Positions 44,753-49,854 of a DNA stretch of 64,000 nucleotides are shown in pieces (position 1 is the stretch's first letter; every line of letters begins with the position of its first letter). Both the position numbers and the translations under genes were made by a program. Where the stretch lies: the NCBI RefSeq assembly GCF_900103975.1, contig NZ_FNIR01000008.1:186001-250000 (forward strand), read 5' to 3'. Below the pieces are notes generated by a model that saw only the letters and a program-made list of their open reading frames with translations, ran no database searches and was not told the DNA's origin. Origin of the DNA: Klenkia soli. GTDB lineage: Bacteria > Actinomycetota > Actinomycetes > Mycobacteriales > Geodermatophilaceae.

Positions 44753-45952
44753 TCAGCCCAGGGCCGAGCCGGCGGTCTCGGGGACCGCGCCGTCGACCGA
44801 GCGGCGCAGCGCGGCGTGCAGGGACTCCGGGGTGAGGACGCCGAGGAACCGGTCGCCGTCGAGCACCGCCACCCAGCCGGCCTCCATGCGCAACATGATC
44901 GCGAAGGCGTTCTTCAGCGTGGAGTCCACCGGCACCCAGGCGTCCATGCGCCGGCTGACCTCGCGCACCGTGCCCGACCCCTGCGCCCGGTCCAGCGACA
45001 GCCAGCCGTGCAGGGACTCCTGGTCGTCCAGGACCACCGCCCACCGCGCGCCGGTGCGGTCCAGGACCGCCCGGGCGTCGGCCAGCCCGTCGGCGACGTG
45101 GACGACCGGCGGCCGCTCGAGGTCCTCGACCTCGATGCCGGTGACGGCCAGCCGCTTGAGCGCCCGGTCGGACCCGACGAAGTCGGCCACGAAGGGGCTG
45201 GCCGGGCGGCCGAGCAGCTCGGCGGGGGTGGCGTACTGCTCGACCTTGCCGCCCTCGCTCATCACCGCGATCCGGTCGCCGAGGCGCACGGCCTCCTCGA
45301 TGTCGTGGGTGACGAACACGATGGTCTTGCGCACGGTCTCCTGCAGGCGCAGGAACTCCGACTGCAGCCGCTCGCGCACGACCGGGTCGACGGCGGAGAA
45401 CGGCTCGTCCATGAGCAGCACCGAGGGGTCGGCGGCCAGGGCCCGGGCCACGCCGGCGCGCTGGCGCTGGCCGCCGGAGAGCTGGTGCGGGTAGCGGTCG
45501 CCGAAGGTGGCGGGGTCCAGGCCGACCGTGCTGAGCAGCTCCTCGACCCGGTCCCGCGTGCGCTTCTTGTCCCAGCCCAGCAGCTTCGGGACGGTCGCGA
45601 CGTTGGTGCGGATGGACTGGTGCGGGAAGAGCCCGACGTTCTGGATGACGTAGCCGATCCGCCGCCGCAGCTGCGTCGGGTCGACCTCGGTGACGTCCTC
45701 GCCGCCGACCAGGATGCGCCCGGTGCTCGGCTCGATGATCCGGTTGATCATCTTCATCGTGGTCGTCTTGCCGCAGCCCGACGGGCCGACCAGCACGGTC
45801 AGCTCGCCCGGGGCGAAGGTGAGGTCGAGGGCCTGCACGCCGACCGAGCCGTCGGGGTAGACCTTGCTGACCCCCTCCAGCCGGATCTCCTCGGCACCCC
45901 CCTGACCGGCGTCAGCGGTGGTGGTCCCGGCAGAGGTGGCAGTAGCGTCCAC
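44753..45952 (-). CDS. Osmoprotectant (glycine betaine/choline-type) ABC transporter ATPase with CBS domains
   Basis: A 399-residue ATPase of the ProV/OpuCA class. Walker A is GPSGCGKTTT (about 56-65), the Q loop VIQNVGLFPHQSIRTNV, the signature QLSGGQRQRAGVARAL, Walker B VLLMDEPFSAVDP and the H loop FVTHDIEEA. Two CBS units follow (about 270-390), the part that senses ionic strength or nucleotides in OpuA/OpuC systems. It is divergent from the permease genes with a 26-base gap. The GTG start has an AGGAAGG site nine bases upstream. The DPTQLRRRIGYV segment is typical of the QAT family. Confidence 0.92.
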   Translation of the reverse strand: MDATATSAGTTTADAGQGGAEEIRLEGVSKVYPDGSVGVQALDLTFAPGELTVLVGPSGCGKTTTMKMINRIIEPSTGRILVGGEDVTEVDPTQLRRRIGYVIQNVGLFPHQSIRTNVATVPKLLGWDKKRTRDRVEELLSTVGLDPATFGDRYPHQLSGGQRQRAGVARALAADPSVLLMDEPFSAVDPVVRERLQSEFLRLQETVRKTIVFVTHDIEEAVRLGDRIAVMSEGGKVEQYATPAELLGRPASPFVADFVGSDRALKRLAVTGIEVEDLERPPVVHVADGLADARAVLDRTGARWAVVLDDQESLHGWLSLDRAQGSGTVREVSRRMDAWVPVDSTLKNAFAIMLRMEAGWVAVLDGDRFLGVLTPESLHAALRRSVDGAVPETAGSALG

Positions 45953-45978
45953 GCGGTGGCCTTCCTGGTGAGCGCTCG

Positions 45979-46731
45979 ATGAGCGCGGCGAGCGGTACGG
46001 CGGTGCTCGCGGTGGACGCGGCGCCGAACCCCTGGTTCAGCACCTCGTGGGTGGTCGACAACTGGGGCACCATCATGCCGTTGTTGGTCCAGCACGTCAG
46101 GTTGACCGTCGTCTCGGTGCTCATCGGGGCGGTCATCGCGTTTCCGCTGGCCCTCCTCGCGCGGCGCAGCAGGTTCCTCACCGGGCCGGTGCTGGGGCTC
46201 TCGACGCTGGTCTACACGATCCCGTCGCTGGCCATGTTCGCCTTCCTCGCCCCGTTCACCGGGCTGTCCGAGACCACCGTGGCCGTGGGCCTGGTGCTGT
46301 ACTCGCTGGTGATCCTGGTGCGCAACTTCCTGGCCGGGCTGCAGGCCGTGCCCGCCGACGCCGTCGAGGCCGCGCGGGGCATGGGCTACGGCCCCGGGCG
46401 GCTGCTGGCGAAGGTCGAGATCCCGCTGGCGCTGCCCTCGATCATGGCCGGGTTGCGCATCGCCACCGTCTCCACCGTGGCGCTGGTGACCGTCGGCGTC
46501 GTGGTCGGCCAGGGCGGGCTGGGCCAGATCATCATCGTCAACGGGTTCAGCGCGAACTACTACCGGCCACCGATCGTCTTCGGCACCCTGGCCTGCGTGG
46601 TGCTGGCCCTGGTCGCCGACCAGCTGCTGGCCCTGCTGGAACGGGTGCTCACCCCCTGGACCCGGACGCCCACCTCGCCCGCCCGCACGAGCGGCCTGCG
46701 CTCCGCCGAGCCCGTGGAGGTGGCGGCATGA
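45979..46731 (+). CDS. Osmoprotectant ABC transporter permease 1
   Basis: A 250-residue inner-membrane permease of the ProW/OpuCB type, with about six membrane helices. The ATPase-contact loop is LQAVPADAVEAARGMGYGPGRLLAKVEIPLALP, containing the EAA-like motif EAARGMG. STLVYTIPSLAMFAFLAPFTG and VGQGGLGQIIIVNG are also typical. It overlaps the second permease by four bases. Together with the divergent ATPase and the downstream binding proteins it makes one uptake system. Confidence 0.92.
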   Translation: MSAASGTAVLAVDAAPNPWFSTSWVVDNWGTIMPLLVQHVRLTVVSVLIGAVIAFPLALLARRSRFLTGPVLGLSTLVYTIPSLAMFAFLAPFTGLSETTVAVGLVLYSLVILVRNFLAGLQAVPADAVEAARGMGYGPGRLLAKVEIPLALPSIMAGLRIATVSTVALVTVGVVVGQGGLGQIIIVNGFSANYYRPPIVFGTLACVVLALVADQLLALLERVLTPWTRTPTSPARTSGLRSAEPVEVAA

Positions 46732-47492
46732 GCGTCGTCGGGGACGCCGTCCTCTACCTCAACGACCCGCTGAACTGGACCCGCCCGCGCGGGATCCTGG
46801 ACCTCGCCGGGCAGCACCTGCAGATCGCCGGGCTCTCGCTGGGCATCGCGCTGGTGATCGCCGTCCCGGTCGCCGTGGTGCTCGGGCACACCGGCCGCGG
46901 CGGGGCGATCACCGTCGGCCTGGCCAACGTCTCGCGCGCCGTCCCCACGCTGGCGATCCTGACGATCTTCGCGGTGACCCCGATCGGGTTCACCATCTGG
47001 GCGCCGGTCATCGCGCTCACCGTGTTCGCGATCCCGCCGGTCCTGGCCAACACCTACGTCGGTTTCCGCGAGGTCGACCGGGACGTCGTGGAGTCCGCGC
47101 GGGCGATGGGCATGAGCGAGCGCCAGGTCGTCCTCCGGGCCGAGCTCCCGCTCGCCGTCCCGCTGATGATGACCGGCATCCGCACGGCGGCCGTCCAGGT
47201 CGTGGCCACCGCGACGCTGGCCGCGCTGCTGGGCGGCGGCACGCTGGGCTCGGTGATCCGCACCGGCTTCGCCCGCCAGGACAACGGCGTGGTCATGGCC
47301 GGTGCCCTGCTGGTCGCCCTGCTGGCACTGCTCACCGAGGTGCTGCTGGCCGTCGTCAGCTGGGCGGTGACCCCCGGGCAGAAGCAGGTGCCGTTCACCC
47401 GTGGCCGCAGCCGCCGGCCGGTCGACGAGCCGGTCGACCTGCCCGCGGCCGACGGCCGGGAGGACCTGGTCGGGGCCGGCGCCCGCACCTAG
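46728..47492 (+). CDS. Osmoprotectant ABC transporter permease 2
   Basis: A 254-residue second permease with six hydrophobic segments. The coupling loop is VGFREVDRDVVESARAMGMSERQVVLRAELPLAVP. NVSRAVPTLAILTIFAVTP and LLGGGTLGSVIRTGFARQDNGVV match OpuCD-type subunits. The C-terminal 35 residues are charged and cytoplasmic. Its ATG overlaps the first permease stop; 124 bases then separate it from the first binding-protein gene. Confidence 0.92.
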   Translation: MSVVGDAVLYLNDPLNWTRPRGILDLAGQHLQIAGLSLGIALVIAVPVAVVLGHTGRGGAITVGLANVSRAVPTLAILTIFAVTPIGFTIWAPVIALTVFAIPPVLANTYVGFREVDRDVVESARAMGMSERQVVLRAELPLAVPLMMTGIRTAAVQVVATATLAALLGGGTLGSVIRTGFARQDNGVVMAGALLVALLALLTEVLLAVVSWAVTPGQKQVPFTRGRSRRPVDEPVDLPAADGREDLVGAGART

Positions 47493-47551
47493 GTCACAGG
47501 ACGGCAACGGTCGTTTGCGCAGGCCCGGCGTGCCGGGTTGAGTTGTGCACC

Positions 47552-47616
47552 GCGGGAGTCCTCCCGCCAGACACGCGTCGCCCCCCAGCGGGGCGCGGGA
47601 CACAGAAGGCGGACAC
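47552..47616 (+). promoter_or_regulatory. Structured leader, copy 1 (binding protein 1)
   Basis: Two adjacent hairpins before the ribosome site: GCGGGA-GTCC-TCCCGC (47552-47567) and CGCCCC-CCAGC-GGGGCG (47579-47595), joined by AGACACGCGT and followed by CGGGACACAGAAGGCGGA. The same layout recurs upstream of the second binding protein, where the second stem has changed in a paired way, which suggests the RNA structure matters. Confidence 0.55.
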
Positions 47617-48609
47617 ATGCGCACGAGCGCCCGCATCCTCACCACCACGTTCGCCGTCGCCACGGTGCTGGCCACCGCCGCCTGCGGCGAGTCCGGATCC
47701 TCGGGCACCAGCAGCGGCGGGGGCGGCGAGGCCTCCGGCGAGGCCTGCGCGCCGGTCGCCGGCGACCAGCTCGTCGTCCTCGAGGACGACAAGGGCCTGC
47801 AGGCCGTGGACAACATCATCCCGGCCATCAACACCGCGTACTCCGAGGCCAACCCGGGTGTGCTCGACGTCCTGAGCTCGATCTCCACGGTGCTCACCAC
47901 CGAGGACCTCGTCGCCATGAACTCCGGCGTCGACATCGAGCGCAAGTCCGCCGAGGACGTCGCCGCCGCCTACGTCAGCGACAACGACCTCGGCGCCGAC
48001 GCCACCGCCGGTTCCGGCCAGGTGGTCGTCGGCGCGGCCAGCTTCACCGAGAGCCAGATCCTGGCCAACGTCTACGCCGACACCCTGACCGCCGCCGGCT
48101 ACACGGCCACGGTGCAGACCGTCGGCCAGCGCGAGACCTACCTGCCGGCCCTCGAGCGCGGTGAGTTCGACGTCTTCCCCGAGTACGTCGGCACGCTGAC
48201 CGAGTACCTCGACGGCGACCCCGACAAGGCGGTGGCCAGCTCCGACCTGGACGCCACCGTCGAGGCCCTGCGGCCGCTGGGCTCGGCCGTGGGCCTGACC
48301 TTCGGCGAGCCGGCCGAGGCGGCCGACGAGAACGCCTTCGCGATCACCACGACGCTGCAGGACCAGCTCGGCGGCATCACCACCCTGTCCGAGCTGGCCG
48401 AGGCCTGCTCCGACGGCTCGCTGGTGCTGGGCGGCACCCCGGAGTGCCCGACGCGGCCCTTCTGCCAGCCCGGTCTCGAGGAGGTCTACGGCCTGAAGTT
48501 CGCCCAGGTCAACGACTACGACCTCGGCGCGCCGACGAACAACGCCCTCAAGCAGGGTGAGATCTCGCTGGCCCTGGCCCTCTCGACGGACCCGGTCTTC
48601 GCCCAATAG
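47617..48609 (+). CDS. Osmoprotectant-binding lipoprotein 1, apparently circularly permuted
   Basis: A 330-residue lipoprotein (lipidated Cys23 in LATAAC) that should deliver glycine betaine, choline or a similar compound to the permeases just upstream. In normal OpuCC/ProX proteins the order is VVVGSxxFxESxILAxxY at the start and LVVLEDD...NxIP...L...LTTxxLxxLN...VA at the end. Here the LVVLEDDKGLQAVDNIIPAI and LTTEDLVAMNSGVD block comes first (residues 51-126), then a short linker, then QVVVGAASFTESQILANVYA (from about 135), FDVFPEYVGTLTEYL, and the protein ends at ALSTDPVFAQ, exactly where the normal block would begin. TPECPTRPFC may form a disulfide. AGAAGGCGG is the ribosome site. Confidence 0.9.
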   Translation: MRTSARILTTTFAVATVLATAACGESGSSGTSSGGGGEASGEACAPVAGDQLVVLEDDKGLQAVDNIIPAINTAYSEANPGVLDVLSSISTVLTTEDLVAMNSGVDIERKSAEDVAAAYVSDNDLGADATAGSGQVVVGAASFTESQILANVYADTLTAAGYTATVQTVGQRETYLPALERGEFDVFPEYVGTLTEYLDGDPDKAVASSDLDATVEALRPLGSAVGLTFGEPAEAADENAFAITTTLQDQLGGITTLSELAEACSDGSLVLGGTPECPTRPFCQPGLEEVYGLKFAQVNDYDLGAPTNNALKQGEISLALALSTDPVFAQ

Positions 48610-48675
48610 AGGACCTCGTCGCCCCCCACAGCACGCTTCGCGCGCTGCGGGCCCCTGCGACGAGGCCGTTCCATC
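48610..48675 (+). terminator. Recurrent terminator-like repeat, copy A
   Basis: Directly after the stop of binding protein 1. Stem arms CCTCGTCGC (48614-48622) and GCGACGAGG (48657-48665) enclose a GC-rich loop with GCACGC and CGCGCTGCGG; the right flank is CCGTTCCATC. It belongs to the five-copy family described in the findings. Confidence 0.7.
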
Positions 48676-48798
48676 CTGTTGCGAGGCGGGCACCCCGGAC
48701 GGGGTGTCCGCCTCGTGGCGTTCCCGGAGGCAACGAAGTGGTCACGGTGTCCCGCGGGATTTGCGCTGGTCGTGGCCCACAGGGTTCCCTCAGGGGCC

Positions 48799-48864
48799 GC
48801 GGGACACCTCCCGCCGGACACGCGTCGTCCCTGCCCGGGACGCGGGACACAGAAGGCGGACCAC
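48799..48864 (+). promoter_or_regulatory. Structured leader, copy 2 (binding protein 2)
   Basis: GCGGGA-CACC-TCCCGC (48799-48814) and CGTCCC-TGCCC-GGGACG (48826-48842), followed by CGGGACACAGAAGGCGGA. Compared with copy 1 the third C-G pair of hairpin 2 is T-A, a compensatory change. Both loops are five bases long. Confidence 0.55.
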
Positions 48865-49854
48865 ATGCGCGCCCGCACCCTCACCACCACCTTCGCCCTG
48901 GCCGCCGTGCTGGCCACCGCCGCCTGCGGCGAGTCGGGCTCCTCCGGCAACGGGGGCGGCGGCTCCTCCGGCGGCCAGGCCTCCGGCGACGCCTGCGCGC
49001 CCATCGCCGACGACCAGCTCGTGGTGATGGAGGACGACAAGGAGCTCCAGGCCGTCGACAACATCATCCCGGCGCTGGAGACGGCCTACGCCGAGGCCAA
49101 CCCGACCGCGATGGACGCGCTGAACACCGTCTCCGCCGTCCTCACCACCGACGACCTGGTCGGCCTCAACGCCGCCGTGGACGTCGAGCGCAAGAGCGTC
49201 ACCGACGCGGCCGCCGCCTACGTCGATGACAACGACCTGGGCTCGGGCGTCACCGGCAGCGGCGCCGTCACCGTCGGGGCCGCGAGCTTCACCGAGAGCC
49301 AGATCCTGGCCAACGTCTACGCCGGGGCGCTGAACAACGCCGGGTTCACCGCCACGGTGCAGACCGTCGGCCAGCGCGAGGCCTACCTGCCGGCCCTGCA
49401 GGCCGGTCAGTTCCAGGTCTTCCCCGAGTACGTCGGCACGGTCGCCGAGTACCTCGACGGCAACCCCGACGAGGCCGTCGTCTCCGGCGACCTGGACGCC
49501 AGCGTCGAGACCCTGCGCGGCCTGGGCACCCCGGCCGGGCTGACCTTCGGCGAGCCGGCCGAGGCCGAGGACAGCAACGCCTTCGCCATCACCGTCGCCC
49601 TGCAGGAGCAGCTCGGCGGCATCACCACGATGTCCGAGCTGGCCGAGGCCTGCTCCGACGGCTCGCTGGTCCTGGGGGCCACCCCCGAGTGCCCGACCCG
49701 GCCGTTCTGCCAGATCGGTCTCGAGGACGTCTACGGCTTCCGGTTCGCCTCGCTGGGCGACTACGACCTGGGCGCCGCGACCAACCAGGCGCTCATCCAG
49801 GGCCAGATCTCGATGGCCCAGGTCCTCTCCACCGACCCGATCCTGGCCCAGTAG
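48865..49854 (+). CDS. Osmoprotectant-binding lipoprotein 2, apparently circularly permuted
   Basis: A 329-residue close paralogue of the preceding gene (lipidated Cys21), with the same permuted order: QLVVMEDDKELQAVDNIIPA and LTTDDLVGLNAAVDVERKS first, VTVGAASFTESQILANVYA next, VFPEYVGTVAEYLDGNPDEA and the Cys-containing TPECPTRPFCQIGLEDVYG later, and the end at VLSTDPILAQ. The duplication therefore happened after the permutation. Differences cluster in the linker and near PTAMDALNTVSAV. It may widen substrate range or increase binding protein dose. Its leader duplicates that of the first gene, so both are probably controlled alike. Confidence 0.9.
   Translation: MRARTLTTTFALAAVLATAACGESGSSGNGGGGSSGGQASGDACAPIADDQLVVMEDDKELQAVDNIIPALETAYAEANPTAMDALNTVSAVLTTDDLVGLNAAVDVERKSVTDAAAAYVDDNDLGSGVTGSGAVTVGAASFTESQILANVYAGALNNAGFTATVQTVGQREAYLPALQAGQFQVFPEYVGTVAEYLDGNPDEAVVSGDLDASVETLRGLGTPAGLTFGEPAEAEDSNAFAITVALQEQLGGITTMSELAEACSDGSLVLGATPECPTRPFCQIGLEDVYGFRFASLGDYDLGAATNQALIQGQISMAQVLSTDPILAQ

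Follow-up and report, generated by a model that had tools for sequence, protein, structure and literature searches.

Circularly permuted OpuAC-family lipoproteins in Klenkia soli and repeated change of segment order among their relatives

Two tandem genes within a 64,000-nucleotide stretch of the Klenkia soli genome (hereafter the window) encode lipoproteins of the OpuAC family (PF04069), and both proteins were confirmed to be circularly permuted. Using four segment profiles, the usual order of the family was defined as S1-S2-S3-S4, while that of both window proteins was S4-S1-S2-S3 (order A). The remaining cyclic orders, S2-S3-S4-S1 (order B) and S3-S4-S1-S2 (order C), were also found, such that all four cyclic orders of the four segments occur among relatives. 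The family is a known one; within it the permutation is genuine and widespread, and no solved relative found has this cut. A preliminary description of the window had recognized the permuted order but missed the wide spread of order A, the B and C cuts, the precedent in print (PMC2395249) and two cysteines specific to order A.

Gene organization and segment order

The locus consists of a divergent ATPase gene with a CBS domain (44753..45952, minus strand; TIGR01186 326.4 bits, cut-off 326.6), two ABC permease genes (PF00528; 45979..46731 and 46728..47492, plus strand) and then both lipoprotein genes, also on the plus strand. The first possible starts of the divergent ATPase and permease 1 frames are separated by 26 bases (45952-45979). 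In four other loci (L146, L147, L150 and L151) the ATPase lies on the same strand, unlike the divergent ATPase of the window. Gene 1 (P0001; 47617..48609) runs from ATG to TAG and encodes 330 amino acids; gene 2 (P0002; 48865..49854), likewise ATG to TAG, encodes a type A protein of 329 amino acids which is 72% identical to protein 1. By inspection, residues 20-23 of protein 1 read TAAC and lead into a Ser/Gly-rich stretch, as in lipoproteins, and the lipobox pattern fitted 84 of 85 A frames.

OpuAC was the sole Pfam family matched by each protein, in two stretches, with scores of 137.9 bits (protein 1) and 118.2 bits (protein 2) against a gathering score of 21.2. The OsmF equivalog NF049931 gave 76.3 and 71.8 bits, under the NCBIfam cut-off of 400 bits. 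When the genome was scanned with PF04069, gene 1 was matched in two inverted pieces, profile positions 2-185 (6.9e-26) and 187-256 (1.6e-11), and gene 2 was also matched in two inverted pieces (1.5e-21 and 2.9e-10). A phmmer search of the PDB paired residues 132-325 of protein 1 with residues 4-193 of Archaeoglobus fulgidus ProX (1sw1), and residues 52-123 with ProX residues 201-271; this inverted pairing demonstrates the inverted order in protein 1. The whole-sequence E-value of this match was 1.1e-17, while the S4 block alone had an i-E of 0.037. Rotated protein 1 outscored the native order against all 59 usual-order relatives (BLAST, best single alignment each).

Within gene 1 the usually C-terminal S4 block lies at 47767..47994 (about residues 51-126), and the usual N-terminal part, S1-S2-S3, follows at 48010..48606 (residues 132-330), preceded by the linker between the old ends. 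Both proteins terminate at the Ser-Thr-Asp segment that normally precedes the S4 block. The positions and order given in the preliminary description thus hold, and its proposal of a clean circular permutation with a linker joining the old ends is supported by the agreement of phmmer, Pfam, rotated BLAST and the AlphaFold2 model presented below, in both tandem proteins. An assembly or gene-calling artefact was ruled out, the same layout being present in 75 of 76 related loci. It had been considered that the N-terminal block might be an extra domain in a protein which also contains a complete usual C-terminal block. This reading carries practically no weight, as all 117 distinct A chains stop 0-6 residues past the S3 profile match, two S4 matches occurred in no frame, and the segment-profile check found no segment present twice in any of 251 frames. 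The finding of canonical homologues with the same order, also named beforehand as counter-evidence, proved inapplicable: homologues with the same order exist, and so do close usual-order relatives.

Structural model and comparison with solved relatives

An AlphaFold2 model computed on 43 A sequences was of high confidence (pLDDT 92.4, pTM 0.88) and showed the type II clamshell fold, with Z of 15.0-16.7 to 1sw1 and 2b4l. With VIA-align, model residues 94-290 were superimposed on ProX 1sw1 6-198 (Z 15.0, rmsd 2.7, 190 aligned) and model residues 5-222 on Bacillus subtilis OpuAC 3chg 63-272 (Z 15.6, rmsd 3.4, 188 aligned); the top structural match was 2b4l, also B. subtilis OpuAC (Z 16.7, rmsd 3.2, 192 aligned). 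The fold search is sequential, and each solved relative therefore covers about 190 of 290 residues. Together the ProX and OpuAC alignments cover nearly the whole model, and they indicate a ProX-like arrangement of S1-S2-S3 and an OpuAC-like one of S4-S1. Forty rows of the PF04069 family were returned at Z 12.4 or more, the next row having Z 8.2.

ProX, OpuBC, OpuCC, OsmF and EgtU share family, fold and ABC setting with the window proteins, and their solved members in the fold search were 20-27% identical over S1-S2-S3. Unlike the window proteins, they have the order S1-S2-S3-S4 where tested and two covalent lobe crossings. In B. subtilis OpuAC (2b4l, 3chg) S4 leads straight into S1, as in the window proteins, but comparison with the model suggests that its chain opens inside lobe II and hence has order B, whereas the window proteins are cut between S3 and S4 and would open between the lobes. 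The sequence of B. subtilis OpuAC presumably fits order B as well. Opening inside lobe II was also the pattern of the order-B relatives. Profile A2 matched 27 clear solved relatives, 26 of them in two stretches and one in three (the sensor precursor 6uru), and none of these 27 (three weak rows apart) has order A.

Passages of PMC10087775 describe two elongated hinge strands in cluster F-I binding proteins. In orders B and C the new ends are predicted to fall inside lobe II, which would preserve both crossings; in order A they would fall between S3 and S4, where the chain returns to lobe I, leaving one covalent crossing. The preliminary description had placed the cut at this return from lobe II to lobe I, which is supported; alignment gives the position, and we infer the topology.

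Circular permutation within betaine-binding proteins (2B4L, 1R9L, 1SW1) has been in print since 2008 in the CPSARST section of PMC2395249, where the permutation family also takes in molybdate-binding proteins and CysB. The structures of that family are listed there at under 24% identity, whereas usual and permuted proteins here reach 61-66%. The same section mentions neither re-cutting within close relatives nor this cut nor the cysteines, and a literature search of open-licence PMC returned, among the matches listed, no permuted binding proteins of Actinomycetes beyond that paper.

Distribution of permuted proteins

Related loci numbered 76, of which 75 had order A and one, from Arthrobacter (L111), had the usual order. 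Order A was widespread in Geodermatophilaceae (Modestobacter, Klenkia, Blastococcus, Geodermatophilus) and Micromonosporaceae (Micromonospora, Catellatospora, Asanoa), and was also present in Cellulomonadaceae (Actinotalea, Cellulomonas). Among the loci then collected, the tandem A pair was confined to five genomes of the genus, that of the window included, other A loci being single-copy. In the tree the two window copies grouped with the single A gene of another genome (G016), which makes the duplication younger than the permutation, as had been proposed.

Profile libraries match such permuted genes in two broken stretches. To find permutants we used a junction profile spanning the join of the old C-terminal end and the old N-terminal start; the survey was confined to Actinomycetota genomes, and the following figures apply there. 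An even sample of the phylum contained 18 genomes out of 396 (window genome counted) with an unbroken junction match at E of at most 2.7e-51, the match of the next genome (5.6e-29) being broken. Unbroken matches at E 1e-30 or better were present in 21/394 genomes of the class sample, with two more partial. At the level of the order, 188 of 397 genomes matched at E 1e-25, broken matches included, and among the matches listed the junction matches were unbroken. A plasmid search with protein 1 matched 341 of 72,556 records, with no one-piece A order in the 40 listed; two plasmid loci which were examined had the usual order.

Removal of identical frames left 117 A, 37 usual, 28 B and 4 C proteins, counts which reflect how loci were collected and not natural frequencies. 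A distant OpuAC subfamily, termed C-prime, accounts for two of the four C proteins (L142 1113-2096, minus strand, and L143 1358-2380, plus strand) and has a permutation of its own at the S2|S3 joint.

Number of order changes

Circular permutation in nature is mostly known from single ancient events between distant homologues. Fukami-Kobayashi is said to have described in 1999 a domain dislocation in periplasmic binding proteins in which the core order changed between classes; that change is reportedly an old one separating classes of the superfamily. In the present family, usual-order and permuted proteins at 61-66% identity, with several cut points, occur in the same kind of operon.

Trees were built on sequences put into one common order. 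The number of order changes needed was at least 7 in a 60-row tree, at least 10 in a 72-row tree and at least 7 in a 70-row tree with outgroup. For the 72-row tree, 7 of the 251 frames, which had fewer than four segments, were dropped along with identical ones, and the 186 remaining were thinned by identity. Order A formed one clade at 91/83 in the 60-row tree and required two changes in the 72-row tree; in the 70-row tree the Cellulomonas protein L096 grouped among usual-order rows (99/96), and L167 took a basal position. Within the clade that unites A genes with leader-bearing genes of usual order, both orders were intermingled in this last tree, which allows for reversion to the usual order.

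AU tests, for which the groups were named after the trees had been seen, rejected one clade for all B proteins (p 4e-82) and one for C with C-prime (p 0.0015). One origin for the near-B proteins was marginal (p 0.030; p 0.034 with L120), while neither one origin for far-B (p 0.23 and 0.35 in two runs) nor one clade for A (p 0.43) was rejected. A conservative count is five changes: A, far-B, near-B, C and C-prime. Order C could instead have come from a B-like gene that was permuted already and then shifted its ends. As the root of the trees is uncertain, some of the changes counted may run back towards the usual order.

A single ancient permutation from an OpuAC-like ancestor, with usual-order relatives as a separate lineage, would agree with the apparent identity of order B with the order of B. 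subtilis OpuAC (suggested by the model and by its sequence) and with the unrejected A clade. We regard it as highly improbable, since a single origin of all permuted forms (A, B and C as one clade) was rejected at p 4e-50 in the same post hoc groups, as was the clade of all B, since usual-order and B proteins at 61-66% identity sit side by side in the tree, and since one leader RNA is common to usual-order and A genes (see below).

A cysteine pair specific to order A

Two cysteines, one in a CAP motif just before S4 and one in an EAC motif just before S2, were both present in 108 of the 117 A proteins. The remaining nine (group f10) had neither, and no A protein had only one. Both together were found in none of the 37 usual, 28 B or 4 C proteins; a single cysteine of the pair occurred in three usual proteins and one B protein. 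One truncated B-like protein (L121/L189) was left out of these counts. In gene 1 the pair is encoded at 47746..47748 (Cys44, in the new N-terminus) and 48406..48408 (Cys264, in lobe II). A different pair, C-x5-C in S2, was present in all 117 A proteins and also in 20/37 usual, 11/28 B and 2/4 C proteins; since this pair is shared with the other orders, each of the two A-specific cysteines most likely has the other as its partner.

Cys44-Cys264 is thus a probable disulfide staple from the new N-terminal segment to lobe II. The pair was perhaps gained or lost only once, in which case its perfect co-occurrence amounts to one or two events, and the nine A proteins which live without it count against the staple. 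Three usual-order binding proteins with leader RNA (L240, L245, L253) have an extra cysteine in the tether region (LCGG or YCGG) and one in S1, perhaps another disulfide solution.

A structured leader RNA

Directly before each lipoprotein gene lies a 54-nucleotide element (47561..47614 and 48808..48861, both plus strand), a structured leader RNA with the consensus CCCGCC-AGACACGCG-variable hairpin-CGGGACACAGAAGGCGG (model R1). A search of the window genome gave these two matches at E up to 1 and no third copy. Two helices were supported by 34 sequences, with a covariation score of 0.328 compared with 0.122 for shuffled and at most 0.104 for slid alignments, although the outer helix varied little among them. 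A further 23 loci from the model's genome search supported both helices (0.451 versus 0.188 shuffled; at most 0.119 when slid), and one pair of the outer helix showed ten changes from C-G to U-A; this alignment was fitted to the model, and one of its loci (L238) comes from a genome already used for training. The end of the Shine-Dalgarno stretch lies within the outer helix, and an upstream 5-nucleotide stretch could compete for it in 59 of 102 sequences, where 16 were expected from shuffles. The 54-nucleotide window leaders alone fold as the consensus, whereas the longer stretches 47545-47625 and 48790-48875 have another minimum-energy fold. The leader RNA may be a riboswitch. Rfam returned seven weak hits below the gathering score, none on the leader, and none for the gene 1 leader alone; a search of open-licence PMC gave, among the matches listed, no description of this RNA.

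The leader was found in 67 of 75 A loci, part of which are in the training set; the eight A loci lacking it were from Catellatospora, Cellulomonas and Actinotalea. None of the 32 B and C loci carried it. It was present in 57/246 genomes of the class and in 2/129 of the phylum sample, both in that class. Outside the window genome, the best 29 of 60 matches were read, and in all 28 with a readable gene the gene behind the leader encoded this binding protein, 22 in the usual order and 6 in order A. A leader common to both suggests orthology of the usual-order and A genes, with the change of order made in place. Since it is absent from the B and C loci and from eight A loci, it supports in-place change only in the A clade.

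Ligand pocket and importer context

The betaine cage of A. fulgidus ProX is given in part of PMC10087775 as Y63, Y111, Y190 and Y214. In the phmmer alignment Y63 is kept as Y190 of protein 1, whereas Y111, Y190 and Y214 are replaced by N239, L322 and V64; the counterparts of ProX D109 and R149, D237 and R280, are unchanged. Betaine binders of the ProX group have this aromatic cage, which is mostly lost in protein 1, and the earlier label of osmoprotectant-binding proteins is not borne out. Among 43 A proteins, 47 columns were invariant, including those of the pocket residues Y190, N239 and R280, and the D237 column was nearly so. The predicted pocket is under selection without being a betaine cage, and the bound solute is probably not ordinary glycine betaine.

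The loss of most of the cage might instead mark the pair as a relic, unable to bind or used for sensing, which has ceased to feed the importer. This is very unlikely, given the 47 invariant columns and the gene neighborhood: in each of the eight loci read over a wide span (2 of order A, 4 of B and 2 of C) the ATPase and both permeases adjoin the binding protein, which was the sole frame matched by the junction profile.

Origin of the permuted genes

We propose that both window proteins are membrane-tethered binding proteins serving an ABC importer (the CBS-domain ATPase and two permeases), retain the OpuAC/ProX clamshell, and would bind and hand over a small solute, probably other than ordinary glycine betaine. 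A short Gly/Ala/Ser-rich linker joins the old C-terminal S4 to the old N-terminal S1, the chain having presumably been opened at the usual return from lobe II to lobe I; of the two covalent crossings one would be left, and the Cys44-Cys264 disulfide may replace the other in most members. The permutation would have arisen in place: tandem copies would have fused and lost their outer parts, while the leader RNA, the signal peptide and the tether persisted, and the linker would be a putative remnant of the second copy's tether. The window pair is a later, separate duplication of the already permuted gene. As a whole, a permuted importer protein with a disulfide staple and an in-place origin is the best explanation and one we hold with good confidence; it builds on the observed order and spread, the quality of the model and the repeated change of order in relatives.

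In passages of PMC3320104, permutation by duplication is predicted to pass through fused intermediates, and no fused or half-trimmed intermediate was present among the 251 frames. This absence would suit fission and fusion, in which two half-genes are rejoined in the other order. The linkers of B and C proteins start where usual-order proteins end and are Gly/Ala/Ser-rich, like a lipoprotein tether. Such clean joins and tether-like linkers, the leader and signal peptide kept in place and the tandem gene copies of the present day fit duplication better, and fission and fusion is on balance an unlikely route.

For the family at large, we lean slightly towards a recurrent permutation hotspot, in which all four orders occur and order has changed at least five times, perhaps with reversions, in every form seen at one of the joints S1|S2, S2|S3 and S3|S4. 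Order A would then have exchanged a two-strand hinge for a single strand with a disulfide, and a leader RNA not previously described would rule expression in the A lineage and serve usual and permuted genes alike. The permuted proteins offer a natural test of how a clamshell survives rewiring. Questions that become testable are at which joints a two-lobed binding protein can accept new termini, whether two covalent crossings are required for the lobes to close, whether docking to the permease is altered when the lipid tether shifts from lobe I to the hinge or to lobe II, and by what route genes become permuted in place. Binding proteins whose ends have been displaced naturally are also of use as biosensor scaffolds.

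Elsewhere in the window genome, a usual-order OpuAC-family domain (L001; contig C19, 86396-87208) lies inside a 702-residue open frame, the fifth PF04069 match in the profile scan of that genome. We take this frame to be, perhaps, a permease fusion as in lactococcal OpuA.
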